Part shown: piece by piece, positions 6,999-59,785 of the stretch
How positions within the stretch are numbered: the first letter of the stretch is position 1
How the letters are laid out: the number at the start of each line of letters is the position of its first letter
The notes under the pieces: model-generated
The model's input: the letters and a program-made list of their open reading frames with translations, nothing else
Told to the model about the DNA's origin: nothing
Databases searched by the model: none
Program-made: the position numbers and the translations under genes
From: Cristatella mucedo
Lineage: Eukaryota > Bryozoa > Phylactolaemata > Cristatellidae
Direction of reading: 5' to 3'
DNA: 64,000 bases
NCBI GenBank assembly: GCA_009760855.2
Contig: WPIO01000009.1
Span: 7,721,001-7,785,000, forward strand

Positions 6999-7306
6999 AT
7001 GCAAAGGACGGGTGCAAGTCTGACCTGTATTGGGATTGACCTCACAGCAGGGCAATCAATTTGGTTGCCAGTGTTTGCTACAGGCACACTAGAGGTGCAG
7101 GGAGGTCGGATAGGTAGGCTGGTGCAAGTCAGTGAAGCGAGCTGAGAGCTATACTGGGGATCTTGATATCTTGAAATTGATTCTATGCTTGATAGGGAGC
7201 CAGTATTTTGGTTTCCATGATGCATGAATTTGTGGGTGAGTACTATGTATACATTGGTACATGTATGTCTATATATGTATATATGCATTATATATATATA
7301 TATGTT

Positions 7307-7307
<1 letters not shown>

Positions 7308-7363
<56 letters not shown>
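7308..7363 (+). repeat. (TG)n microsatellite
   Basis: A perfect TG array of about 28 units, just upstream of the R2-like retroelement relic. Confidence 0.95.
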
Positions 7364-7366
<3 letters not shown>

Positions 7367-8040
7367 TGTGTCGTTCCAGGCTTGGCAGTTCGTGCACCGA
7401 GCACGCCTGGACATACTGCCAGGAGCCGGGCATACCCTGGGACAGTTACCAGCTGCTGCCTATGCCACACCGAGGCAGAGACCGTTTGCCACGTGCTGAG
7501 CCACTTCCTGCCGATGCTGCACGCAATTACGGCCCGACACAACCTGGTTCTGGGTGGCCTAATCGGAGCTCTTCCGGCCACCTCGCTTAACTGCACGTCG
7601 GCAGGCCACGCCCTCCCGCTTGCGGGGGGGGGGGGGGGGGGGGGTCTGGCTCTCAAGCCGGACCTGATCATTGACAACGGCACTGATGTTGTAATTGTGG
7701 ATGTGGCAGTGCCATTCGACAGCAGCGAGGATGCTACGGTTGTGGCAGCCCGGAACAAGACCGATAAATATGCAGCCATCGGCCGGTCTTTCCTGACCCC
7801 TGACAACCGGTCGGCAGTGATGAGGCCCTTCGTGGTCGGGGCTCTCGGCATGTGGTGGCCAAACAATGAAGCTTGCCTGGCCGAACTGGGCATCCCACAT
7901 TCGGAAAGGACAACTTTAAGGTGCCGCTTTGTCTCCGACGCCATTATCGGCTCAAAAGCCGTGTGGTCCCTGTTCCTGAACCGGGAGGCCCGGGTATCAC
8001 ACTCGACCCCGACAGGACAGGGTGCTGCCGGCTATTGTAT
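7364..8040 (+). pseudogene. R2/NeSL-type non-LTR retrotransposon, C-terminal endonuclease relic
   Basis: The translation shows the C-terminal hallmarks of restriction-like-endonuclease LINEs. First comes a zinc-knuckle-like block, CCLCHTEAETVCHVLSHF. A PD...D core follows as PDLI then IVDVAVPF, then the conserved K..KY spacing (NKTDKYAAIG) and a PFVVGALGMWWPN block. The reverse transcriptase itself is missing. A frameshift near 7440 separates an upstream RARLDILPGAGH block from the zinc knuckle, and a run of 18 G at about 7626 may be another. Families of this kind cut DNA with this domain; this copy is dead by truncation. Confidence 0.8.
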
Positions 8041-8112
8041 ATATATTTATTAGTTAAAAATCTTTTTCTCGATAATACATATATGTATATACATTAAATA
8101 TATCTGTACACT

Positions 8113-10951: not shown

Positions 10952-11078
<127 letters not shown>

Positions 11079-11654: not shown

Positions 11655-11755
<101 letters not shown>

Positions 11756-16964: not shown

Positions 16965-17046
16965 GTGAGAGGCGGCGGCGGCTGCTGCTGGCTCCCAGAC
17001 AGGTCGGCTGGCTCGTGCATGCGTGCATCGCACCCTGCACCACTGC

Positions 17047-17138
17047 CCACCGTCTCTCCCTCCCTCTCTCCCTGCCTCCCTACCACCGTCTCTCCCTCCC
17101 TCTCTCCCTGCCTCCCTACCACCGTCTCTCCCTCCCTC
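17047..17138 (+). repeat. 37-bp pyrimidine-rich tandem repeat (about 2.5 units)
   Basis: Units combine CCACCGTCTCTCCCTCCC with TCTCTCCCTGCCTCCCTA and lie in the intron just before exon k. They provide an extended polypyrimidine region about 90 bp upstream of the acceptor used at 17228. Confidence 0.85.
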
Positions 17139-17228
17139 AGTGCGACGATCGGCCTTCTGTCCGCTGTTGGCCCTGCTGTCCGAGGTTCCCGGCCAAACCG
17201 AACCAGCCGCTCGGCGCCGCTTTTACAG

Positions 17229-18104
17229 TGAGCTCAGACGAGCGAGCACGGCCGCCGCGTACGCCGAGGCCTGGGCGCCGCTGCCGTCGCTGCTCGCCAC
17301 CTACGAGGAGCTTCTGACCTCGGTCGACAACCTCGACCTGTCGCAGTGTCGCGCCCTGCAGGCCGAGAGCGTCGCCGACTTGCTGCAGGGCTGCAGGCGC
17401 GCCTCCGAGCTGGGCGCGGGCGGCCAGGTGGACTGCGCTCTTCGCTTCCTGTCCGTCCTGCTCGCTCGGGTTCGCCTTCATCACCGAAGAAGCGGCTGCT
17501 GCTGCCGCTGCTTTGGTTCGCAAGCCGTGGTCTCCGCCGACTCTGCCGGCAGAGTCGGCGGAGGAGGCGCGGCCGGGTCGCCGCCGGGCGGCGCCGCAGG
17601 ACCGGCTGCTCTGCAGGGCCACCTGTGGAAGCACGCGTATCCGTTTCTCGCGGACTTCTTCTTTGCCGGCGATCGGGCAGGGCTGGCAGACGTTGCCGTC
17701 GACCAGCTGGTCACCGGCGGGAACGCCTCGCCCGACGCTGCGGCCGCCGCTGCCGTGGGCTTTACCTACCTGGCCACGCTCTGCACGAACGAGCAGCAGA
17801 AAGACGACGACGGCGGCCGCGAGCTGGCCGCCGTCTTTGCCGACTTCTCGCGCTGGCGTCCCGATGGTGGCGGTGGCGCCACGCAAAACGGCTGCACGGC
17901 CGGTCACGCGGCTCTGCTGTACATAAGTCACGTGCTCACGGATTCGGAGCTGGTGGCGCAGCTGCAGCTGTGTAGCTTCTCCAGCAGGATCGGCGCACAG
18001 GCATTCCCACGGCGCGTCATGAGCGCGTGGATGATGGCGTGCGCCGAGCTGCCGAGCGACAGCAGCAGCAGCAGCGTCGTACCCGTCGTAGACGATCTGT
18101 TCAG
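17229..18104 (+). CDS. MMS22L: MMS22L large central exon k (876 bp)
   Basis: I chose the acceptor CTTTTACAG at 17228 because it alone restores the reading phase from exon j; the more obvious CCCTCAG at about 17139 does not. The exon encodes YAEAWAPLPSLLATYEELL, FLSVLLARVRLHHRR (vertebrate FLQAVLARIRSMHQQ), LQGHLWKHAYPFLADFF (ALWRHFFSFLK), YISHVLTDSELVAQL (YLSHVLQNSTLCEAL), SRIGAQAFPRRVMSAWMMAC (VSFQALTVRSWIRCVLQ) and ends in a split Arg codon before GTGCGA. A Gly/Ala/Ser-rich linker replaces a charged vertebrate linker and contains a 32-bp DNA palindrome. Confidence 0.92.
17532..17563. repeat. 32-bp perfect palindrome inside coding exon
   Basis: The half-site CTCCGCCGACTCTGCC at 17532-17547 is followed at once by its exact reverse complement at 17548-17563, with no spacer. 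It lies within MMS22L exon k and is translated in frame as part of the Ser/Ala/Gly-rich linker. Confidence 0.95.
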
Positions 18105-18276
18105 GTGCGAGCGGCGCTGCCGCTGCTGCCGGCGTCTTTCTGTCCTATCTTGAACGTCTCGCTTCAGCTTCGCTTTCCCTTCGCGCGTGCGCTCGACCGG
18201 GCGTCGGCAGCCCGAGATGCTGCGTCCGCTGTTCTCCCACTGTTGTAGCAGCCATTTTCTTTCTACTCCTCCGGCC

Positions 18277-18280
<4 letters not shown>

Positions 18281-18337
<57 letters not shown>
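18281..18337 (+). repeat. (CT)n microsatellite
   Basis: CT array in the MMS22L intron between exons k and l, followed directly by a GT array. Confidence 0.95.
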
Positions 18338-18338
<1 letters not shown>

Positions 18339-18345
18339 GCATGCG

Positions 18346-18440
<95 letters not shown>

Positions 18441-18450
18441 TGTGTGTGTT
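18346..18450 (+). repeat. (GT)n microsatellite
   Basis: About 105 bp of GT on the sense strand, ending roughly 80 bp before exon l. Confidence 0.97.
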
Positions 18451-18529
18451 GGCTCTGCGCCTGTACGTTTGCCCGGGGGGGGGCTGGCCAGTGCTGCCTC
18501 TGCTCATCTTTTCATGCCGTTTTCTTTAG

Positions 18530-18842
18530 AGAAATAAGATGCCAGACCTGGTTCGTTACGCTGTGGCAGCTCGACCCTCGTGCTGCCGACGGCTTGAGCC
18601 GCACCTACTCTGGCTCGCTGCTCGGGCTTCTCGGCGCCGCAGCGGCTGCGGATGCTGGCAGAAGCGGCGACGTGAAAGCGAGGACTTCACTCAGAGACAC
18701 GATGTGCGAGCTGTTGGAGGGCCTGCCTGCCGCCGTGGCGGGCGCCGTCCGAGATGGTGGCCAGTCTAGCAAGCAAATGGAAAGCATGTACTACTTCTGT
18801 GCTCATCTGGTGCAGCTGTGCGCACCGCTCATCTATGCAAAG
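18530..18842 (+). CDS. MMS22L: MMS22L internal exon l
   Basis: The acceptor TTTCTTTAG supplies the A that completes the Arg codon of exon k, giving DLFREIRCQTWFVTLWQL. The donor is AAG|GTACTC in phase 0. It covers the vertebrate MKQLVKLTRLL region, an Ala-rich middle, and MYYFCAHLVQLCAPLIYAK aligned with YLGEVLKYIKPYLGKK. The frame starting MPDLVRYAV is a shadow of this exon. Confidence 0.85.
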
Positions 18843-18933
18843 GTACTCGCTGCGCCTTTCTCTCGTTGTACTTTCCGGTTGTTCTTATTATTTGTTTACT
18901 GCGTACTCATCATTCCTCTTTTCCTCTACGGCC

Positions 18934-18936
<3 letters not shown>

Positions 18937-19003
<67 letters not shown>
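18937..19003 (+). repeat. (CT)n microsatellite
   Basis: CT array 94 bp after the donor of MMS22L exon l, pyrimidine on the sense strand. Confidence 0.96.
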
Positions 19004-19007
<4 letters not shown>

Positions 19008-19037
19008 TCTACTCATGCAAGCCACACGTGTCTGCAG

Positions 19038-19118
19038 GTTTTAGTGCATGCTGGTCCGTTGCCAGCCGGTGTGGGTGTACACACGCCTGGCAGCCCTATG
19101 GGGGCACCTGGAAGCACA
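19038..19118 (+). CDS. MMS22L: Possible MMS22L exon (uncertain frame)
   Basis: The vertebrate protein has about 30 residues between exons l and m that are otherwise missing. After TGTCTGCAG there is an open phase-0 stretch of 27 codons ending at a weak donor ACA|GTTAAG that keeps frame, but its sequence (HAGPLPAGVGVHTPGS) is not clearly MMS22L-like. A second reading from TTTTAG at 19044 gives VWVYTRLAALWGHLEAQ, more helix-like, but has no phase-compatible donor. The segment may be non-coding. Confidence 0.3.
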
Positions 19119-19825
19119 GTTAAGACCAATTAGCTCGACTAACATAGTTTGCAGGCATGGCCTTGAAGGCAGGATGTGCATTTTTCAGTTAAGAACGTTA
19201 TGACTGGCATTGAGCAAATGCTAAGCTTAATTACACCAAGAGTGAACTCTGTTGGCGGAATGGACTTTGCTCTGTTGTTGGGGACAACGTGGCAGCTGAT
19301 CTTCATCGCTTGGTATACAGAATGTTTTCTGCGACTCACTTCTTTGTAGCTTCCTTCAAGGACTCTTAAGACTTTCACAACCTTTTTTTGGGACTGGCAC
19401 TTGTAATCCACAAAGGAAATTTGCTGGAAACTGGCAATACGGTTTGGGAATGCTACTGATCATTTGTGACTGTCATGCTGACATTTAACGTTGGACTGGG
19501 TACCACTTTCTGCGTCGTTTCCAACATTCGGTAGGGTTAAGCGAATTAGGTTCATGGATCTCGGAGCTTGATGGATCGGCAGTCTCTTCCTTCTCGTGAC
19601 GATGCCTTCTTGCAATCGGTAATATTGGAGTACCAGACTCTATTATGAAGCCTTCCTACTCAACTCGACGAGGTTACTACATGGTGATGTTTCTTGCTGC
19701 CACCAAATTTTCTCCTTTTTTGACATAGAACTGCCTGTTTTTTTGGGGTATGCCAATGCAGCCTTGGTGAAGAACCCCTTTGTAATCGTCCGTTGAAAAT
19801 CTCCTGCTCATTCCTTCACATAATA

Positions 19826-20642
19826 ATAATAATAATAATGCACTTGATAAAAAAGAGCCCTCGGAGAACTCAATCTCTTTCTAGGCGCTTTACAATTGCT
19901 GCAAAGGGAAGTGCGATTGAATGATGAGTAATATCATGCTTGATAAACAAGAATAACATGGTTAGGGGTAACATGCACAGGGTCAGCATGCAAATGTGGT
20001 TAGTGGACAGCAAGCACAGTGTCAGCACGCATAAGCACATCAAGGACGAATCACAAGGACCCATTAAATGCTGTCCTAAATAGGTGTGTTTTTAAATTCT
20101 TTTTAAATGTGGTCAGGTCAGGGGATGTTCTGACGCAGGTCGGGAGGGAGTTCCAGGCTTTGAGGGCATACGAACTAAATGCACGGTCTCCAAAGGATTT
20201 AAGGTTTGTACGAGGTATTTGTAGACTGTTGGATTCCGAAAAGTGGGTGGTACGATGCTTGGCCTGATGGGGTAGTATATCTGAGAGATAGGCTGGAGCC
20301 ATAGAATGAACGGACCTAAAAGTGAGCGACAAAACTTTGAAGTCAATCCGTTGCTTGACTGGTAGCCAGTGCAGGTCGGCAAGAAGTGGAGTAATGTGGC
20401 AACTGCGCCGCTCACGACAGACAAGCCTAGCTGCAGAGTTTTGCACCAGCTGCAATCGCCTGATCGCACATGCTGGTAGGCCAGTAAGCAGTGAGTTGCA
20501 GAAGTCGAGACGGGATGTCACGAATGCATGGACAAACTTGGACGTGGTAACCTTATCTAAACAAGCCCGAATTTTAGCAATGTTATGAAGCTGAAAATAG
20601 GCAGATTTGACTGTGGAGCTGATATGGTCGTTTAACGAGAGG
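19826..20642 (-). mobile_element. LINE B 3' half, antisense
   Basis: On the minus strand an open frame (20051-20521) encodes MTSRLDFCNSLLTGLP, ITPLLADLHWLPVKQRIDFK, YALKAWNSLPTCVR and FKKNLKTHLF. This is the conserved C-terminal region of a second non-LTR family, distinct from LINE A. A 3' UTR follows, then the TTCTCCGAGGGC stem-loop tail and an ATT repeat at 19826. The 5' end is cut near 20642 where LINE A sequence begins. Confidence 0.88.
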
Positions 20643-24037: not shown

Positions 24038-26652
<2,615 letters not shown>

Positions 26653-36009: not shown

Positions 36010-36747
36010 TGCCTGTAGCTAACCGTAAAATTCAATGGTGATAAAGTCATGATTTGGGCCTGCTCCTTATTGTTCCGTGTCGGAGTTCTACATCGTTCAA
36101 AATGGGCTCTGCCAACATATATATACTGTTGAATCCGCACGAAATCTAGGTGTCATGTTCCAAAGTGACTTTTTGTTAGACGACCACATCAGCTCCACAA
36201 TCAAGACTGCCTACTTTTAGCTACATAACGTTGCTGAAATTCGGGCTTGTTTAGACAGGGATACTACTTATAAATGGGTCCATGCATTTGTGACATGACT
36301 TCTGTCTTGACTTCTGTAACTCACTTCTGGCCTACCCGTCTGTGCAATCAGGCGCTTACAGCTGGTGCAAAACTCTGCAGCTAGGCTTGTCTGTCGTGAG
36401 CGCCGCAGTTGCCACATCACGCCACTTCTCGCCGACCTGCACTGGCTACCAGTCAAGTAACACATTGACTTTTTAAGGTTTTTTTTACTCACTTTCAGGT
36501 CCCTTCATTCTTTGGCTCCAGCATACCTATCTGATCTATTGCCCTACCAAGCTAAGCATTGTAGCACCCGCTTTTTGTAATCCAACTGTTTACCTATAGC
36601 TCATACAAACCTCAAATCCTGTGGAGTCCGTGCCTTTAGTTCATATGCTCCCAAAGCTTGGAACTCACTCTCGACTTCCATCACGACATCCCCTGACTTG
36701 ACCACATTAAAAAAAATAAAAACGCATATTTATCACAGCATTTGGTG
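36010..36747 (+). mobile_element. LINE B copy, part left of SPIN-like insertion
   Basis: Decayed sense copy with ESARNLGVMF-like, DFCNSLLAYP, LVQNSAARLVC and ITPLLADLHWLPVK blocks and many stops. It ends in ATTTGGTG, the left target duplication of the hAT insertion. Confidence 0.8.
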
Positions 36748-36918
36748 CAGTGGTCCTCAACCTTCCTAATGCCGCGACCTTTTAATGCAGTTCATCATGT
36801 TGTGGCGACCCCCAACCATAAAATTATTGTGTGCAAAAAGTGGAGATGCGTATTTTCCGATGGTCTTAGGGGACCCCTGTGAAGGGGTCGGTCGACCCCC
36901 ACAGGTTGAGAACCGCTG
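36748..36918 (+). mobile_element. SPIN-like hAT miniature transposon, 171 bp
   Basis: The element starts CAGTGGTCCTCAACCTTCC and ends CACAGGTTGAGAACCGCTG, which are inverted termini. It is flanked by 8-bp duplications ATTTGGTG (36740-36747) and ATTTAGTG (36919-36926). Internal blocks TGCCGCGACCTTTTAATGCA, GACCCCCAACCATAAAATTA, TTTTCCGATGGTCTTAGG and GACCCCTGTGAAGGGGTCG closely match what I recall of SPIN, a hAT family known for horizontal transfer among animals. It has no transposase, so it was a non-autonomous copy. Confidence 0.88.
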
Positions 36919-36926
36919 ATTTAGTG

Positions 36927-37165
36927 GGTCCCTGTGATTCGTCCTTCACGTGCTTATACGTGCTGACACTATGCATGTAGCCACTATCCACATTTGCATA
37001 CTGACCCTGTGCATGTCACCCCTAACCATGTTATTCTTGTTTATCAAGCATGATATTACTCACCATTCAATTGCGCTTCCTTTGCAGCAAATATAAAGCT
37101 CCTAGAAAGAGATTGAGTTCTCTGAGGGTGCTTTATCAAGTGTGTTATTATTATTATTGTCATCA
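36927..37165 (+). mobile_element. LINE B copy, part right of SPIN-like insertion
   Basis: Continues the element at 36010: GGTCCCTGTGATTCGTCC, the repeated GCATGCTGACCCTGTGCATG-like 3' UTR, and the tail AAAGAGATTGAGTTCTCTGA followed by an ATT repeat ending near 37158. Confidence 0.85.
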
Positions 37166-59379: not shown

Positions 59380-59785
59380 GAAAGAGATGGAGTTTAACGG
59401 ACGGAGCAGCAGAGATAGACAGATAGTGAAAGAGACGGAGAGAGATGGAGGGGAGAGCATGAGAGAGAGAGAGAGAGGGGGAGAGAGGGGCAGATGGCGG
59501 GGAGAGTATGAGAGAGAAAGAGAGAGGGGGAGAGAGGGAGAGATGGTGGAAGAGGATGACAGGGAAAGAGAGAGAAGAGAGAGGGGGAGATGGCGAAGAG
59601 AGGATGAGAGAGAGAGAGAGGGAGAGAGTGGGAGATGGCGGGGAGATGATAAGAGAGAGAGAGAGGTGGAGAGAGGGGAAGATGGTGGGGAGAGGATGGG
59701 AGAGAGAGAGAGAGAGGGGGGGAGAGGGGAAGATGACGGGGAGAGGATGAGAGAGAAAGAAAGAGAGTGAGAGCATGAGAGATTT
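59380..59785 (+). repeat. Purine-rich minisatellite, about 400 bp
   Basis: Six or so imperfect units of about 60 bp, each a GAGAGAGA run followed by GGGGAGAGAGG, AGATGGCGGGGAGA and a GATGAGAGAG end. The purine bias is nearly complete over the whole stretch. Confidence 0.9.

Follow-up and report, generated by a model that had tools for sequence, protein, structure and literature searches.

A decayed SPIN-type miniature hAT element and its sister copies in an invertebrate genome, probably acquired horizontally

The 171-bp insertion at positions 36748-36918 of the window (the whole 64-kb stretch of DNA analysed, C687:7721001-7785000 of the host assembly) is read here, with a probability of about 0.88, as a dead, internally deleted and non-autonomous copy of SPIN (SPACE INVADERS), a hAT transposon of the Buster type, left by an ancient horizontal invasion whose derivatives were amplified and then decayed. 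The SPIN family is best known from mammals and reptiles, and its placement in the Buster group is our assumption. A decayed miniature copy is nothing unusual; what makes this one of interest is where it was found, in a new host for a known kind of element. Searches were performed on the host assembly of 572 Mb in 688 contigs. In the excerpted part of PMC4054807, turtle SPIN is filed under hAT-Charlie.

The insertion is real, with inverted ends and a target duplication, and is the single copy within the 64-kb window. Its parts and its surroundings are as follows.

36748 to 36918, plus strand: non-autonomous hAT (SPIN-type) insertion of 171 bp, in which 16 bp of the 187-bp family consensus are absent near the 3' end
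36748 to 36763, plus strand: 5' terminal inverted repeat CAGTGGTCCTCAACCT, from inverted-repeat pairing
36903 to 36918, plus strand: 3' terminal inverted repeat AGGTTGAGAACCGCTG, from inverted-repeat pairing
36740 to 36747, strandless: left target-site duplication ATTTGGTG, read directly and aligned with the empty paralogue
36919 to 36926, strandless: right target-site duplication ATTTAGTG, read directly, with the central TA kept
36857 to 36881, plus strand: 3' subterminal core (CCGATGGTCTTAGG...), 1 base off the consensus core and common to the 187-bp and longer families
36201 to 36743, plus strand: left half of the host repeat that the element interrupts ("LINE B" in the first-pass annotation), 81% identical to 20610-20066
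36919 to 37158, plus strand: right part of the interrupted host repeat, 89% identical to 20069-19825
20062 to 20069, minus strand: target left intact in the paralogous repeat, reading ATTTAATG on this strand, from the joined flanks aligned with the antisense copy

The terminal inverted repeats are 16 bp long; those of the window copy pair at 14 of 16 positions (88% complementary), those of the consensus at 15 of 16. The target duplication of 8 bp had been described in the first-pass annotation as exact; ATTTGGTG and ATTTAGTG differ at one base. That annotation also had the element interrupting a repeat, which held: the two flanks are the two halves of the repeat that lies antisense at 19825-20610. 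When the flanks of the element were joined and aligned to this antisense copy, the undisturbed target ATTTAATG was found, as had been proposed; the proposal that it displays the pre-insertion sequence did not stand, as 20062-20069 belongs to a paralogous copy of the repeat that differs from both duplications and is no orthologous pre-insertion locus. Folded as a single strand, the element was mildly better than its shuffles (z -1.99). The hallmarks of hAT elements named in PMC11008031 are target duplications of 8 bp and inverted repeats of 15 bp; the element has the 8-bp duplication, and its 16-bp repeats come near the 15 bp or so.

When the element was compared with the host genome, 41 matches were obtained, comprising the element itself, 39 copies at 85-91% identity and one at 77% (40 scored of 2061 candidates). 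The possibility raised earlier, that the host has no second copy, is refuted by these 40 other scored matches. The other matches were covered by 39 stretches, from each of which one copy was taken; one stretch (L026, G000:C676:2828074-2828474) contains a pair of oppositely oriented SPIN copies separated by about 90 bp, and one of the pair was used. The 3' ends of the 39 sister copies were set by an automatic rule that favours matching duplications, and under this rule 27 of 39 copies had duplications with at most 2 mismatches and 12 of 39 had 3 or more. Among those 27, the target followed the pattern nnnTAnnn, with T at the fourth position in 26/27 left and 26/27 right duplications and A at the fifth in 24/27 left and 25/27 right. 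We take this pattern to be a signature of Buster-group hAT elements. In the window copy, the right duplication fits it and the left one is without the A.

The window copy and 32 sisters gave a consensus of 187 bp; the other 7 of the 39 were dropped for duplications that differ at more than 3 positions. A 25-base consensus core of its 3' part yielded 1205 matches in the genome (595 + 610) at up to 3 mismatches, far beyond chance, as its reversed control had 0 + 0. If divergence is taken to be 5-9% throughout, this count implies a copy number of roughly 1250-1475, a lower bound because older and truncated copies escape the core search. Four single copies (L022, L025, L036 and L047) carry duplicated or rearranged GACCC-rich 3' subterminal blocks and are 190-227 bp long. 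The 3' subterminal loss of the window copy is common to L015 and came about perhaps by slippage between GACCC repeats.

The assignment to SPIN was approached with a provisional reference of the mouse type, 311 bases long, which we wrote out ourselves once the 187-bp consensus was known, so that only its interior is independent of the consensus. That its letters are those of SPIN is an assumption. A 93-base 5' stretch of this provisional reference, about 60 bases of which are interior that the window element lacks, matched the genome at 82-91% identity (40 scored of 188 candidates; best E 2e-29). Of the 40 loci listed, 25 were examined (L108-L132); the 311-base reference aligned over practically its whole length with 11 of these 25, at 79-87%, and with part of its length to the other 14. 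A longer sister family emerged, with a consensus of 321 bp built from 14 of the 25 loci and duplications with at most 2 mismatches in 9 of the 14 copies. This consensus differs from the provisional reference by 9 mismatches over 308 aligned bases and by gaps of 3, 6 and 7. Its first 81 and last 85 bases are those of the 187-bp consensus; compared with the provisional reference, the first 81 show a single mismatch and the last 85 none, although the ends of that reference were written with the 187-bp consensus already known. The provisional SPIN interior is present in a longer family with the same ends and absent from the window copy.

One anchor is independent of the provisional reference. The reverse primer for mouse Kcnq1ot1, as given in an excerpt of PMC6221546, shares 19 of its 20 bases with the 187-bp consensus. 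One 14-base word of the element occurs in PMC10570371. SPIN patterns gave 0 matches in the viral_contigs collection for four patterns and 0 in the genome_contigs collection for one of two, and the window element had no match among plasmids and phages. A 24-base SPIN pattern match in an Enterococcus contig of genome_contigs was judged to be chance, the remaining matches of that contig to the provisional SPIN reference being short and scattered.

The likeness to SPIN would comprise the terminal repeats and subterminal blocks (by the provisional reference and the mouse primer), the interior of the longer sister (by the provisional reference), the 8-bp target duplications and the existence of short non-autonomous derivatives in high number. 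As to differences, the interior of the 187-bp derivative is not recognised from elsewhere; relative to the provisional reference, the 321-bp consensus is longer by 13 bases, which form a palindrome with the CCGATGGTCTTAGG block, and is without 3 others. Near its 3' end, the longer family carries an extra CCTAAGACCATCGG block, a palindrome with the CCGATGGTCTTAGG core, that is absent from the provisional reference. The first-pass annotation had called the element a SPIN-like hAT miniature transposon, and the nnnTAnnn target, the high copy number and the longer sister with the provisional SPIN interior all bear this out. Judged from the provisional reference and the single 20-base mouse primer anchor, membership in SPIN appears well supported. 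A SPIN derivative of about 640 bp lies at C442:8288881-8289522, and further derivatives therefore exist.

The alternative that fares best, although we consider it unlikely, is that the element is a vertically inherited miniature of another hAT family in the Buster/Charlie group that has SPIN-like short ends. Ends of the form CAG...GGTTCTCAACC are common to several hAT families, and the loci checked yielded no autonomous SPIN; against this, the longer sister follows the provisional SPIN interior throughout, beyond the ends, and 19 of 20 bases of the mouse primer block agree.

Candidate transposases were sought in the genome by their domains. The hAT dimerisation domain PF05699 gave 138 matches and DUF4371 gave 46, of which 26 are interrupted by stops in the matched region. 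No SPIN ends were found at 30 of the 138 PF05699 loci or at 30 of the 46 DUF4371 loci, and 19 weaker PF05699 loci were likewise without them in their 3' flanks; the flanks examined were about 1.5 kb or less, so that some ends could be missed. An autonomous SPIN was not found at the transposase loci checked. Weak matches resembling SPIN ends at L096 (17 bases) and at L085 and L138 (3 mismatches in 15) were judged to be chance. Among the PF05699 loci, a very young hAT family (L048-L077, for example L053:22-1755) was observed, in which 29 other copies are about 99.0-99.9% identical to L053, as measured on the longest piece of each copy (1.3-2.2 kb). Many of its matches lie within open frames of about 640 aa, and the family looks autonomous. 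Its protein looks to us Ac/ZBED1-like. These features suggest recent or current activity of this family, unrelated to SPIN.

It is very improbable that the SPIN copies were mobilised by this abundant, young PF05699 family with its frames of about 640 aa, even though no other hAT transposase family among the loci examined looked clearly intact. No SPIN-like end was present at any of the 30 loci examined, and the protein is presumably of the Ac/ZBED1 kind. The copies of the young family are about 99-99.9% identical to L053, whereas SPIN copies are 5-9% off their consensus, and because these divergence levels differ, the two bursts differ in age.

The host was assigned from the COX1 gene of the assembly, found on a 21,008-base contig. 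Read with the invertebrate mitochondrial code 5, the gene has an uninterrupted frame of 497 codons; the vertebrate code 2 breaks this frame. Its matched 447 codons hold 5 AGA and 3 AGG in frame. Because COX1 reads only under code 5 of the two codes, the host is an invertebrate and not a vertebrate. Its AAA codons fall at sites that we take to be lysine, an argument against the codes of flatworms and echinoderms, and the protein looks lophotrochozoan. A globin search of the 572 Mb found a single exon, distant from solved globins (best E 4e-6). A lamprey host, which base composition and the CA/CT arrays had suggested, is rejected on the mitochondrial code and this lone globin. The arthropod cuticle family PF00379 gave 0 candidates in the genome search, a weak result in that the controls were likewise without signal. 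COX1-like fragments outside the mitochondrial contig (G000:C166:4375626-4376390, C83:2826-3735, C549:2641741-2642010 and C299:634220-634540) are probably nuclear mitochondrial insertions. That the window is vertebrate DNA or contamination, with SPIN as an ordinary vertebrate resident, is hardly credible and for the assembly as a whole is refuted: the window is GC-rich with long CA and CT runs, but COX1 needs AGA/AGG as an amino acid at 8 codons and is broken under the vertebrate code, one divergent globin exon is all that 572 Mb hold, and SPIN copies are spread over many contigs up to 24.8 Mb long.

To estimate age, distances to consensus were calculated for both families, in samples that are biased towards best-matching, well-preserved copies. 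For the 187-bp family (33 sequences), the mean K2P distance to the consensus was 0.060, or 0.052 without CpG sites, and the window copy stood at 0.061. The mean pairwise distance was 0.123 (528 pairs), about twice the distance to the consensus, as expected of a star-like burst from one source. The 14 copies of the longer family had a mean of 0.091, or 0.083 without CpG sites. Divergence from consensus is thus about 5-6% in the 187-bp family and 8-9% in the longer one. If substitutions are assumed to accumulate at 2e-9 per site per year, the two families together would span about 25-45 million years. This assumed-rate range overlaps with the age of mammalian SPIN in an excerpt of PMC5857283, which is 15-46 million years. 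Judged from its divergence, the SPIN family in this host is old rather than recent. The recent arrival suggested by the first-pass annotation is too strong a reading and weakly supported, because copies 5-9% from their consensus, even in samples biased towards the best matches, correspond to about 25-45 million years at the assumed rate.

For the SPIN reading, the following course is proposed. An ancestral SPIN would have entered the invertebrate lineage by horizontal transfer and would have given rise to at least two short derivatives, of 187 bp and about 320 bp. These derivatives would have been amplified in one burst to well over a thousand copies, and since the burst the copies would have decayed by about 5-9%; the copies and their divergence are observed. 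The retained terminal inverted repeats and subterminal blocks would have made the window element recognisable by SPIN transposase made elsewhere in the genome. We infer that this transposase, acting in trans, inserted the element into the older repeat copy at ATTTA(G/A)TG, and gap repair would have yielded the 8-bp duplication; insertion with duplication is itself observed.

The host probably gained the family tens of millions of years ago, with another animal as the donor. An ancestral sequence about 97% identical over its whole length to mammalian-type SPIN is, in an invertebrate, unexpected for neutral DNA under vertical descent, which argues for horizontal transfer as far as the mammalian letters, taken from the provisional reference and one 20-base primer, are right. 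Few invertebrate hosts of SPIN are known, and they include a pond snail and a planarian. A blood-feeding bug is a further host according to an excerpt of PMC11614815. Near-identity across distant hosts is the usual argument for SPIN transfer in the excerpted parts of PMC5857283, PMC11614815 and PMC5379729, and the transfer between animals described for SPIN in the first two would be a further likeness of the present family. Excerpts of PMC11614815 also hold that SPIN_NA_12_RP and SPIN_NA_13_RP of Rhodnius prolixus were acquired from vertebrates, and count fewer than 5 Rhodnius prolixus SPIN copies inside piRNA clusters, a figure that is not a genome count. These are SPIN derivatives in an invertebrate and are likened to the present family by description, not by sequence. 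The hAT transposon hAT-6_XT has spread horizontally among turtles, fishes and a frog (PMC11008031, in excerpt); it is another hAT family, again likened by description only. The words SPIN, hAT and lamprey are absent from the main text of Zhang 2020, and the passages of PMC5857283, PMC4054807, PMC5379729 and PMC7922186 make no mention of SPIN in lamprey.

We give about even odds to a wider claim, namely that SPIN invaded an invertebrate lineage not previously known as a carrier, from an ancestor about 97% identical to the mammalian type, as part of the same cross-phylum wave, and that this lineage may itself link invertebrate and vertebrate hosts or may have had parasites in common with such a link. 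With more than 1000 copies, two derivative families and an ancestor near the provisional mammalian type, the host provides a data point on a transposon crossing phyla. With dated relatives, the time and ecology of the cross-phylum transfer would become testable.

The rest of the window was also searched. Eighteen distinct open reading frames of the window gave only below-cut-off matches in Pfam (MMS22L_C, PDEase_II and AGTRAP), and the window gave 0 matches in Rfam, no tRNA and 0 matches in the PDB searches. An open frame at 7196-8053 has a CCLC...H...H motif and a PDLI...VDV stretch, with the below-cut-off PDEase_II match on the opposite strand; the frame presumably resembles the endonuclease end of R2-type non-LTR elements. 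Possible exons lie at 16969-19133, where the below-cut-off MMS22L_C match was obtained (E 0.007). Long CT and CA/TG runs, many of them perfect, were observed along with a 49-bp tandem array at 10955-11075, 11657-11752, 18347-18449, 25442-25546 and 59442-59773.
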